A DNA stretch of 23,864 bases from an uncultured Clostridia bacterium (GTDB lineage Bacteria; Bacillota; Clostridia; Oscillospirales; Ruminococcaceae), in NCBI GenBank assembly GCA_947302065.1, contig CAMYUO010000003.1, forward strand, positions 1 to 23,864, given 5' to 3'. Below, piece after piece: positions 12,501-14,350 of this stretch. The notes under the pieces are model-generated. The model was not told where the DNA came from. It saw only the letters and a program-made list of their open reading frames with translations, and did not search any database. Made by a program: the position numbers and the translations under genes. How positions within the stretch are numbered: position 1 is the first letter of the stretch; each line of letters opens with the position of its first letter.

Positions 12501-12602
12501 ATGGACACGATATACTATCCGATAATGCCGATGAATTTCCCGTTCGGAACATACGTCCGTGATACGGGACTTATAAAACATAAACAGCGAAAGGAGATAT
12601 GA
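12501..12602 (+). CDS. micro-ORF 3, 33 residues
   Basis: It begins MDTIYYPIMPMNFPFGTYV and ends HKQRKEI. A GAGGA site lies seven bases before the ATG. Its last codons contain the AAAGGAG ribosome site of the next micro-ORF, whose ATG is 3 nt past its stop, an arrangement typical of translational coupling. It is Tyr/Pro/Met-rich with no recognised domain. Confidence 0.38.
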   Translation: MDTIYYPIMPMNFPFGTYVRDTGLIKHKQRKEI

Positions 12603-12604
12603 AT

Positions 12605-12667
12605 ATGTTGAATATGTGCTTTGTAGAACCGGTGAACTGGACACTGAGTACGCTCCGGAATTCCTGA
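12605..12667 (+). CDS. micro-ORF 4, 20 residues
   Basis: The peptide runs MLNMCFVEPVNWTLSTLRNS. AAAGGAG lies eight bases upstream, inside the previous micro-ORF. A fifth site of the same type, CGAAAGGAG near 12762-12770, is followed by ATG 12779 and an ORF of only four codons (MGRR, stop at 12791-12793), so the chain of start sites continues without a conventional gene. Confidence 0.35.
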   Translation: MLNMCFVEPVNWTLSTLRNS

Positions 12668-12830
12668 CCACAGACAATACGATCCGTAATCAAAGAAACT
12701 GCCGGGGCGACGGGCTCCGCATTTCACAGATAAAATTATGGAATTATGATATAAATATAACCGAAAGGAGTGAAACCGATGGGCAGGCGTTAGCCCGGTC
12801 GGCTGACCGAGAAAACAGATCCGTTCGTAT
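12668..12830 (+). other. 3' part of the micro-ORF transcript, no conventional gene
   Basis: The stretch holds an AT-rich segment (12725-12760), the fifth ribosome site and four-codon ORF, and small GC-rich dyads (GGGC/GCCC at 12781-12796 and CGGTC/GACCG near 12797-12810) before the shared terminator. A GTG-started frame 12616-12843 (75 codons) is open but has no ribosome site of its own. Confidence 0.4.
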
Positions 12831-12873: not shown

Positions 12874-14163
12874 CTATTCTTTTTTGTCTTCGCTCCATTT
12901 ATATTTGCGCAGGAGTATGCCAAAGACGGTACAGACCACAACGCCTGCTATGCCGAGCACTGCAAAAAGCATTGCTGCGCCCGAGCCTTTGCCTGTGCCG
13001 AACAGGGTATTGAGCATCGTGCCGCTTTTATCGCTCATATACGGCTCAAAGACGCTGTCGGTGAGCATTCCGCCGAGGTAATACCCCACGGGGATAGTGA
13101 AAAACTGCAGGGTATTGCGGCAGGAAAAGACTCTTCCCTGCATATCGCCCGGTATCTCGGTGCGCAGAATGACATCGAGATTTGCGCCCATAAATGGCAG
13201 CGCTATCCAGCCGAGGACTGCGCCGATACACCACACGAGCGGTGTTTTACCGAATGCGAGCAGGAAATTCTCGGTGCTCATCGAAAGCAGCAGCGACAGC
13301 CATATCATTTTTACACGGTTTTTGGGTTTCGGCGTTATCATAACGAGTATGCTGCCGACAAGTGTTGCTGCGCCGCAGGTCGCATTGACGAGCCCGAGGA
13401 CGCCGTTGCCGCCTGCTTCTCTCGGAATGATGAGTGCGGGAAGCACAGAATGATAGCAAGCTGCGACGAGGTTTATGCCCGACAGGAAAAGTATCAGATA
13501 CAGCACCATCGGGTTGCTTTTGAGCCACACGAGACCCTCGCCTGCCGAACGCAGCAGCGAGGTCTTTTCTTTATTTGTCTTTTCGGGCTCGGGTATTCTG
13601 ATAAACACGCTGAGCGTAACGAATGCGACGAGAAACGTTGCAAGGTCAACGGCGATGACCGACTTCAAGCCGCCGAATGCGAACAGAGCCGTTGCAAAGA
13701 CGGGTGTGAGTATGCCGTTGAGCGAATCGGAGAACGAACGCAGGCCGCTTGTGCGCTGATAATGCTTTTTGGGTATCAGCATAGTGGCGGCGACATCGCC
13801 TGCGGGACGCTGGACGGTATTCATAAGTCCGTTGAATGCGTTGATGATATACAGATGCCAGCCTGCGAGCCTGCCTGTGAGTGCGAGCAGCAGCACGGCG
13901 ACTGTGCTCAATGCGGCGAACAGGTCACAGCCGAGCATGGTCAGCTTTTTGTTCCACCTGTCGCTGAGCGCACCTGCGAAGATGCTCATAAGGACATAGG
14001 GTGCATAGGTGCATATCTGAAGCATTGCTGTTTCGAGTGCAAGGCCGTTTTTCTGATAAAGCCACAGCGTGAGTGCGTAGCTTGTCATGCCGCTGCCAAG
14101 TGTTGACAGCGACTGTGTGCTCCACAAGAGCAGATATGGTTTTAAAGTATTCTGTTTTTTCAT
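12874..14163 (-). CDS. MFS transporter, drug-efflux type (macrolide-efflux-like)
   Basis: A 429-residue membrane protein with about 12 helices in two halves around a charged central loop (PEPEKTNKEKTSLL, near residue 190). The loop between helices 2 and 3 has the MFS signature AGALSDRWNKK. The sequence style (short N-terminus, QRPAGDVAATMLIP, RTEIPGDMQGRVFS) is that of the MFS_3/MefA-like branch that exports drugs by proton antiport. The actual substrate cannot be read from the sequence. The ATG at 14163 has AAAGGAG upstream (14174-14180). The leader contains a small peptide gene and a set of alternative helices, which supports a role as an inducible resistance determinant. Confidence 0.88.
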   Translation of the reverse strand: MKKQNTLKPYLLLWSTQSLSTLGSGMTSYALTLWLYQKNGLALETAMLQICTYAPYVLMSIFAGALSDRWNKKLTMLGCDLFAALSTVAVLLLALTGRLAGWHLYIINAFNGLMNTVQRPAGDVAATMLIPKKHYQRTSGLRSFSDSLNGILTPVFATALFAFGGLKSVIAVDLATFLVAFVTLSVFIRIPEPEKTNKEKTSLLRSAGEGLVWLKSNPMVLYLILFLSGINLVAACYHSVLPALIIPREAGGNGVLGLVNATCGAATLVGSILVMITPKPKNRVKMIWLSLLLSMSTENFLLAFGKTPLVWCIGAVLGWIALPFMGANLDVILRTEIPGDMQGRVFSCRNTLQFFTIPVGYYLGGMLTDSVFEPYMSDKSGTMLNTLFGTGKGSGAAMLFAVLGIAGVVVCTVFGILLRKYKWSEDKKE

Positions 14164-14166
14164 TTT

Positions 14167-14257
14167 GACTTTGCTCCTTTATATTTATCTATATAGGGAA
14201 TGCAAAGTCCGAGGACTCACCTGCCCTCCATGCAGTGTCCTCAAACCTTGCATGGAG
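14167..14257 (-). promoter_or_regulatory. translational attenuator of the MFS gene
   Basis: Three minus-strand RNA pairings compete. (1) CUCCAUGCA (14257-14249), in the leader peptide gene, pairs with UGCAUGGAG (14234-14226). (2) 14253-14237 pairs with 14216-14200 as an unbroken 17-bp helix, three of the pairs being G-U. (3) GACUUUGC (14209-14202) pairs with GCAAAGUC (14174-14167), and next to it UCC (14199-14197) pairs with GGA (14177-14175) of the ribosome site. Helix 2 and helix 3 share one strand, so only one can form; helix 3 hides the transporter's ribosome site. No U-run follows, so control is probably of translation, not transcription. Confidence 0.7.
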
Positions 14258-14285
14258 CAGATGCACTGCAGTTTCTCTTGCTCAT
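14241..14285 (-). CDS. leader peptide of the MFS gene, 14 residues
   Basis: The peptide is MSKRNCSASAPCKV. GGAAAGGAG lies eight bases before the ATG, and the ORF starts about 30 nt after the predicted transcript start. Its last codons and stop overlap the 5' arms of helices 1 and 2 in the attenuator, so a ribosome on it must change the folding downstream. This is the arrangement known from erm and cat leaders, although the peptide does not resemble a stalling peptide I know. Two Cys codons and the basic KR/K residues are its notable content. Confidence 0.65.
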   Translation of the reverse strand: MSKRNCSASAPCKV

Positions 14286-14321
14286 AAAAAAGACTCCTTT
14301 CCAGAACGGTTTTTCGCTATT

Positions 14322-14350
14322 ATTATAGCACAGCGGCATCAAAACGTCAA
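14322..14350 (-). promoter_or_regulatory. sigma-A promoter of the MFS leader and gene
   Basis: On the minus strand, TTGACG (14345-14350), 17 bp, TATAAT (14322-14327). The expected transcript has a leader of about 150 nt before the transporter ATG, enough for the peptide gene and attenuator. Confidence 0.85.

Follow-up and report, generated by a model that had tools for sequence, protein, structure and literature searches.

The window analysed here is the whole stretch of 23,864 nucleotides at the start of contig CAMYUO010000003.1, from the assembly GCA_947302065.1 of an uncultured Clostridia bacterium of the Ruminococcaceae. On its minus strand a 14-codon leader open reading frame (ORF) stands ahead of the gene for a major facilitator superfamily (MFS) transporter, called the pump below. 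We consider it probable that this leader is a translational attenuator operated by drug-arrested ribosomes, and that it belongs to a leader-RNA family widespread among Clostridia. Sequence and covariation support the leader ORF, the helices, the exclusion of one fold by the other and the distribution of the family. From the position of the promoter, leader and pump gene are probably transcribed together. Leader-peptide attenuators are already well known as a kind; what is new is the family, the variety of effector types that it precedes and a core that is independent of reading frame.

The RNA is organized into five arms, A to E (Table 1). A sequence-only reading of the window had described the promoter, the leader ORF with its ribosome site, the 17-bp helix that we call B:D and a competing helix, D:E, over the ribosome site of the pump gene. 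All of these are present where it had placed them, both helices exact to the base; its scheme missed the hairpin A:C, by which a leader free of ribosomes would be held closed. Helix B:D has 17 pairs, three of them G-U, and D:E has 8 + 3 pairs with a 2-nt bulge; the two are rivals for arm D. Hairpin A:C competes with B:D through their common ATGCA, so that both cannot form in full. The minimum-free-energy fold of the free RNA (161 nt) combines A:C with D:E, which is the closed state. Its energy is modest evidence (-47.2 kcal/mol, z -2.77, with 5 of 200 shuffles equally good), and the case against chance comes from conservation and covariation. The two strands of the leader region together hold three promoter-like sites, where shuffled sequence has 0.3 on average.

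Table 1. Elements of the leader locus and pump gene in the window
Feature	Position	Strand	Basis or pairing
Sigma-70-type promoter TTGACG-17-TATAAT, TG before -10	14322..14350	-	11/12 consensus letters
Leader ribosome-binding site AAAGGAG	14294..14300	-	sequence
Leader ORF, 14 codons MSKRNCSASAPCKV + TGA, ATG at 14285	14241..14285	-	counterpart of the 12-codon MxLCIAxAPCKV leaders of relatives
Arm A CTCCATGCA	14249..14257	-	pairs with C; shares ATGCA with B
Arm B ATGCAAGGTTTGAGGAC, contains the final leader codons and stop	14237..14253	-	pairs with D in the open state
Arm C TGCATGGAG	14226..14234	-	pairs with A
Arm D GTCCTCGGACTTTGCAT	14200..14216	-	pairs with B (open); whole D region 14216-14197
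Portion of D GACTTTGCATTCC	14197..14209	-	pairs with E (closed)
Arm E GGAGCAAAGTC, overlaps the MFS ribosome site and includes sequence ahead of the ATG	14167..14177	-	pairs with D
MFS ribosome-binding site AAAGGAG	14174..14180	-	sequence
MFS transporter, 429 aa, start at 14163	12874..14163	-	TIGR00900-like, distantly Mef-like

Relatives of the pump were sampled from 17 of 61 near genomes (E <= 0.001), from 26 of 391 genomes from the same class (E <= 1e-80) and from the best 80 of 575 relatives in public genomes; the searches of the 61 near, 391 class and 398 phylum genomes overlap in part. The public-genome relatives come mostly from Oscillospiraceae, Ruminococcus, Lachnospiraceae and other Clostridia, with one from a Treponema metagenome-assembled genome. 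Upstream DNA was collected for 117 MFS loci, which leave 115 distinct ones without the exact duplicates L045 and L047. Outside the 117 stand L042, whose N-terminus is missing, and six remote MFS genes (L014-L019; identity 26% or less), whose upstream DNA on inspection held no such leader. The leader is found at 104 of the 115 distinct loci, 100 times as an APC-type ORF by pattern and four times as a strong match (L046, L076, L101, L124) to the covariance model R1, which was built from the alignment A2 introduced below (59 rows, the window among them). Pattern matches at L012, L013, L041 and L124 were rejected as wrong ORFs, L124 being regained as a model match. At L027, L037 and L039 the leader is shortened, L109 gives a weak model match, and no leader was found at L043, L044 and L100. 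The loci L012, L013 and L041 form part of a diverged MFS subclade (38-41% identity) with MLCRLIINLR..LLCT leaders, weaker model matches and apparently the same helix order in a different sequence.

Alignment A3 holds 78 rows, the window and 77 of 96 loci, chosen for Ala at codon 8 and for a distance of 110-150 nt between leader start and MFS start; A2 keeps 59 of these prepared rows, the other 19 having been left out by hand. The sequence-only reading had staked its scheme on compensatory changes in relatives, and B:D and the combination A:C plus D:E both covary. In A3 both-side changes occur in 10 of the 17 pairs of B:D (76 such cells against 25.4 in shuffles; 0 of 500 as good) and likewise in 10 of 17 pairs of A:C plus D:E (38 cells against 6.0; 0 of 500). 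A2 gives 10 of 17 pairs for B:D (62 cells against 21.0; 0 of 500) and 8 of 17 for A:C plus D:E (28 against 4.7; 0 of 500). For further pair types in A:C plus D:E, 15 of 500 shuffles were as good in A2 and 13 of 500 in A3. Of the cells in A3, 91.3% are paired for B:D and 97.0% for A:C plus D:E, values that drop to 26-49% when the partner is slid by 1-3 columns. Taken by itself A:C has 98.3% of its cells paired and both-side changes in 6 of 9 pairs; D:E, counted over its 8 core pairs, has such changes in 4.

Because these shuffles ignore relatedness, a partner-swap test between loci was added, using 96 of the 100 leaders and leaving out four with Ala at codon 7. Native partners won 7264 of 8952 comparisons for B:D, 5362 of 8024 for A:C and 5240 of 9120 for D:E, and the native energy lay below the median swapped energy at 89 of 96 loci for B:D and 67 of 96 for A:C. 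Among 15 diverged leaders, with at least 5 base differences in B, native wins were 192 of 210 (B:D), 168 of 200 (A:C) and 153 of 210 (D:E). Covariation and shared bases support two mutually exclusive folds, one of which would hide the start of the pump gene. The alternative that the pairing is due to chance, or has decayed and has no present function in this genome, can draw on an assembly that is only 70% complete and on a window fold z of just -2.77, but the promoter, the ribosome sites, every arm and the MFS frame are intact, and R1 scores the window leader at 96.2 bits (E 1.1e-23, partly by construction, since the window is a row of the model); we give it almost no credence.

Ribosome-masked folding was carried out for 99 leaders, namely the 104 pattern rows minus the four wrong ORFs and L098: a ribosome of assumed footprint was placed at each codon in turn, P-site 11 excepted, and the RNA downstream of it was folded. 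Codons are numbered by alignment on Ala 8 for folding of the start region, and from each leader's own start for the ribosome-site measure. The start region of the pump gene is unpaired to a mean of 0.37 without a ribosome, of 0.46, 0.48, 0.43, 0.52 and 0.59 at P-sites 1-5, and of 0.36-0.41 at P-sites 6-10, 12 and 13, while shuffled leaders give 0.48-0.50 at every position. A gain above 0.15 over both closed states is seen at P-site 5 for 59 of 99 real leaders against 6 of 198 shuffled ones, at P-site 4 for 35 of 99 (6 of 198), at P-site 2 for 23 of 99 (4 of 198), and at P-sites 6-9 for none of the 99. The start behind the window leader is unpaired to 0.74 at P-site 5 and 0.62 at P-site 4, to 0.45 without a ribosome and to 0.40-0.41 from P-site 6 on; since this leader begins two codons earlier, its counterpart of codon 5 is its own codon 7. 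When the front edge of the ribosome is scanned, the start is most open (mean 0.59-0.60) where the unoccupied RNA begins at nucleotide 27-29, the peak falling there at 69 of 99 loci and at 22 in 12. The predicted stall window is narrow, with the P-site at about codon 4-5 in relatives and 6-7 in the 14-codon leader of the window. On the average of the 99 leaders, and in the window, this prediction agrees with the switch logic of the sequence-only reading, by which a ribosome at the leader stop would hide the start and one stalled early would free it; measured on the ribosome site alone the picture is weaker (15 of 99 above 0.3, against 9 of 297 shuffled).

The mechanism that we propose is as follows. 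In idle RNA, A:C and D:E would form and shut off the MFS start. On reaching the leader stop, a translating ribosome would cover B, D would keep E, and the gene would stay closed. A drug-arrested ribosome with its P-site at about codon 4-5 (numbered on Ala 8; 6-7 in the window) would cover A and leave B free; B would then take D, E would be released and the pump would be made. We infer the stalling, the drug, the induction and the export substrate of the pump. Alternative helices could instead build a terminator, and such transcriptional attenuation is used by related resistance genes, mef(E)/mel and cplR, according to excerpts of PMC4335068 and PMC10201436. The minus strand between 14100 and 14420 has no terminator-like site, on which ground we rejected this explanation, and D:E leads directly into the MFS start with no U-run; its probability is very small.

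The leader is exactly 12 codons long in 90 of 100 loci, with the consensus MxLCIAxAPCKV*. Residues were counted over 100 leaders aligned on the conserved Ala 8. Residue 3 is Leu in 68 and Arg in 21; residue 4 is Cys in 61, Ile in 10, Ala in 10, Thr in 6, Met in 6 and another in 7 (Ser in 1); residue 5 is Ile in 61 and Ser in 13; and residue 6 is Ala in 46 and Val in 32. From residue 8 onward the leaders read A-P/L-C-K/R-V (104 pattern rows, including the four wrong ORFs). Codon 2 varies among I, R, L, K, V and M, and codon 7 can be nearly any. At codon 3 Leu is encoded by all six of its codons and Arg by four, with 0.63, 0.92 and 0.04 bit of information at the first, second and third base (92 rows, one a wrong ORF), so this codon looks selected as an amino acid. 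At codon 5 the selection signal is mixed, ATT making up 50 of 55 Ile codons (92 rows). From codon 8 to the stop, selection seems to have acted chiefly on the RNA; position 8 takes A, T, S or P because its NCT bases pair in the RNA.

A ligand-binding riboswitch with an incidental leader ORF would account for the very high conservation of core nucleotides across proteins 51-83% identical to that of the window. It sits poorly with the retention of the leader's start, ribosome site and length, with a C-D spacer that varies in length and sequence, and with an arm B that spans the end of the reading frame and the stop. Ten loci gave no Rfam match at gathering scores, the window's four matches from an E-value search lying below gathering, and on these Rfam results we rejected the riboswitch, which is highly improbable.

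The same leader precedes other genes. In the genome of the window R1 finds a single strong copy, the window leader. The 391 class genomes gave 47 matches at E <= 0.01 in 44 genomes, all of which were inspected. By position 19 are MFS orthologues, L025 alone being independent. By our own reading, 14 of the remaining 28 are genuine, 13 look like chance (many lie inside reading frames) and one, L192, is doubtful. All 29 class matches with E <= 8.1e-6 are genuine, as are 4 of the 18 weaker ones, judged post hoc by helices and gene. The 14 comprise another MFS gene (L187, TIGR00900 148.5 bits), three sites before CatA-like genes (L189, plus L185 and L188, where a Vat-like gene comes next), two before Cfr (L191 and L197, 642 and 678 bits against a curated cut-off of 468), one before an Lsa ABC-F gene (L199, 762.6 against 750) and seven before CD3324-family genes (L186, L190, L193, L196, L198, L200, L202). 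The CatA-like genes behind the leader reach 210-214 bits (cut-off 270), and the Vat-like gene of L188 scores 242 against 300. No R1 match was found at the MFS gene in 7 of the 26 MFS-bearing class genomes (L027, L037, L039, L041, L042, L043, L044). Match L192 (genome G088) has a short MQIAYAP-type frame, an A:C-like hairpin and no resistance gene seen behind it, and is possibly a decayed copy.

In the 398 phylum genomes R1 gave nine matches, among them the window and G199, both rows of the model. The others include another MFS gene (L131), four CD3324 genes (L133, L134, L135, L137) and L136, probably chance. At L132 (genome G660) a complete-looking leader stands directly before a C-terminal MFS piece, as if most of the gene had been lost. 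The CD3324 name was given to L186, L193, L198, L200 and L202 by likeness of the first residues alone, and to L196, L190, L133, L135 and L137 by a gene-naming search. Downstream of CD3324 genes lie a Vat-like gene (L135, 235 bits against 300), a SpoU-type methyltransferase gene (L196) and an ABC-F gene truncated where its stretch ends (L200, 301 against 380). Genes of the CD3324 family occur in 41 of the 398 phylum genomes (E <= 1e-8), and among 30 loci inspected by eye the core is present at about 9-11, with no formal count. Proteins of this family have about 88 aa; of two tried against Pfam one gave a weak Mor match, and some of the genes adjoin ribosome-drug genes. At L056:2191-2478 a CD3324-family gene lies immediately before the pump orthologue, seemingly running into it, and the usual leader is absent there.

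In the non-MFS classes other frames run through the RNA core (LLHAES, RSMQS or THAKP, for example), and A:C and B:D are retained in the 11 non-model loci for which they were computed, most weakly in L199. A general translation-rate sensor would need no peptide-specific arrest: any early slowing, by several drug classes or by a shortage of charged tRNA, would open the same switch. Such a sensor fits the variable N-terminal residues at codons 2 and 7 and the changes of frame, since a single common arrest peptide cannot serve the CD3324, Cfr and Lsa genes as well; the conservation of MFS-class codons 3-6 as L/R-C-I-A/V, with synonymous Leu codons at position 3, speaks against it, and we regard it as a possible but doubtful explanation.

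Several observations weigh against drug-operated attenuation. Ribosomes at P-sites 1 and 2 part-open the start too, by the means given above and to 0.62 at P-site 2 in the window; the gain hangs on the assumed footprint, a one-codon shift closing the start; 16 of 99 loci gain less than 0.1 at any of P-sites 3-6, and just 35 of 99 gain more than 0.25. In the swap test the native D:E lies below the median swapped energy at 46 of 96 loci, a weak outcome, though an expected one where these two arms hardly vary. RNA pairing, and not peptide sensing, may account for much of the retention of APCKV. Of the 19 MFS orthologue matches in the class, 18 are rows from which R1 was built. Among 26 CatA-like genes in 23 of 172 genomes the leader stands at just one (L230, the site of L189), and the plasmid cfr(C) at L206 is without it. 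The pump, finally, falls below the cut-off of every Mef model.

The last two gene counts mean that the association is with subsets of the CatA-like and Cfr families. The leader is near-universal within this MFS clade alone and sporadic elsewhere. A plasmid CatA-like gene (L203) is also without leader, and an R1 match at E 0.08 near another CatA-like gene (L227) was taken as chance. A Cfr family search matched none of 172 genomes, its positive control also being without match, so that this result is uninformative. The genome of the window has a CatA-like gene of its own (L222, G000:C112:1065-1682; 166 bits, below cut-off) without this leader.

CatA, Vat, Lsa and Cfr confer resistance to phenicols, streptogramins A, lincosamides, oxazolidinones and pleuromutilins. 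Because the same leader precedes genes against those drugs, drugs of the peptidyl-transferase centre (PTC), of the phenicol, streptogramin A, lincosamide or pleuromutilin class, are the likely inducers. Some leaders may resemble the cat-86 leader, a likeness that we do not claim. An x-[L/R]-C-I context rule is not known to have been described for any PTC drug. It is an even question, in our judgement, whether one RNA family acts in Bacillota as a shared PTC-drug sensor, its core read in three frames, with a drug-induced regulon of differing effectors (Mef-like pumps, CatA-like/Vat-like pairs, Cfr, Lsa ABC-F and CD3324 small helix-turn-helix-like proteins) and with x-[L/R]-C-I around codon 5 as the arrest residue set of the MFS class.

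Arrest by phenicols and oxazolidinones is described in excerpts of PMC11832420 and PMC8987054 as best with Ala before the last residue and weaker with Ser or Thr, chloramphenicol arrest being helped by Lys at -3 and Asp at 0. For a P-site at codon 5 the penultimate residue would be position 4, where 78 of 100 leaders have a small residue (C, A, S or T), a fit to this rule that is suggestive only. We do not claim it as proof: Cys, with 61 of the 78, lies outside the rule, and the other 22 leaders have I, M, E, L or V. Drugs that act right after initiation, with little need of context, are treated in part of PMC10201436; with them the P-site would lie on the opening codons of the leader, for which masked folding frees the start only in part on average.

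If the attenuator is real, the leader family flags silent drug-inducible resistance in commensal Clostridia of gut and rumen, by pumps, Cfr, Lsa and acetyltransferases, and inducible resistance is easily overlooked when gene lists alone are used. It would also supply new natural arrest peptides through which to study the reading of the nascent chain by PTC drugs, as well as a testable role for an unnamed MFS clade and for CD3324 proteins.

Known systems offer several comparisons. The genes cmlA and fexA are translational attenuators of chloramphenicol export genes according to part of a review (PMC5418344). As in the erm, cat, cmlA and fexA attenuators, so far as excerpts describe them (PMC5418344; for ermC, PMC10219788), a short translated leader is combined with alternative mRNA folds, and as in the erm/cat type the read-through fold would hide the ribosome site of the resistance gene and drug arrest on the leader would open it. 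Unlike them, the family has another leader peptide and RNA, as judged against leaders published in those excerpts or otherwise familiar; one leader family stands before several unrelated gene families; and arm B, which would do the switching, contains the final leader codons and stop. Streptococcal mef(E)/mel likewise has a leader peptide ahead of a Mef-type MFS pump, but its leader is MTASMRLR and is followed by a Rho-independent terminator (excerpts of PMC4335068), whereas the window leader has no MRLR motif and no terminator, and the window pump lies far below the Mef cut-offs. The cplR system of Clostridioides, as partly covered in PMC10201436, is also clostridial, with a PTC-drug resistance gene and an upstream ORF (uORF) on which arrest frees a hidden ribosome site, the step that we propose here. 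It is set apart, by description and with RNAs unaligned, through its uORF consensus MR[I/M] and its use of transcription termination. No description of the leader or of CD3324 proteins was found in open-licence literature, and the excerpt of PMC11477304 held nothing on this leader.

The product of the pump gene is an MFS protein (PF07690, 90.1 bits). It scores 168 bits with TIGR00900 against a cut-off of 319.6, and 101.2 bits against the NCBIfam cut-off of 675 for the Mef(A) macrolide efflux family, of which it is not a member. Mef membership was rejected on these scores, and the pump appears distantly Mef-like at most. At E <= 1e-30, 12 plasmid records hold a pump relative, two of them more than 50% identical (L204 and L205), both with the leader, and phage records hold none; a mainly plasmid or phage gene was accordingly rejected.

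Elsewhere in the window, two more short ORFs with strong ribosome sites, MNMLNMCFVEPVNWTLSTLRNS and MGRR, converge on the pump gene from its downstream side, at positions 12590-12800 of the plus strand. Between 3356 and 8725 on the minus strand, genes recognised by eye for an FHA/ABC-type protein, a large kinase-like leucine-rich-repeat protein and a PP2C-like phosphatase lie side by side.

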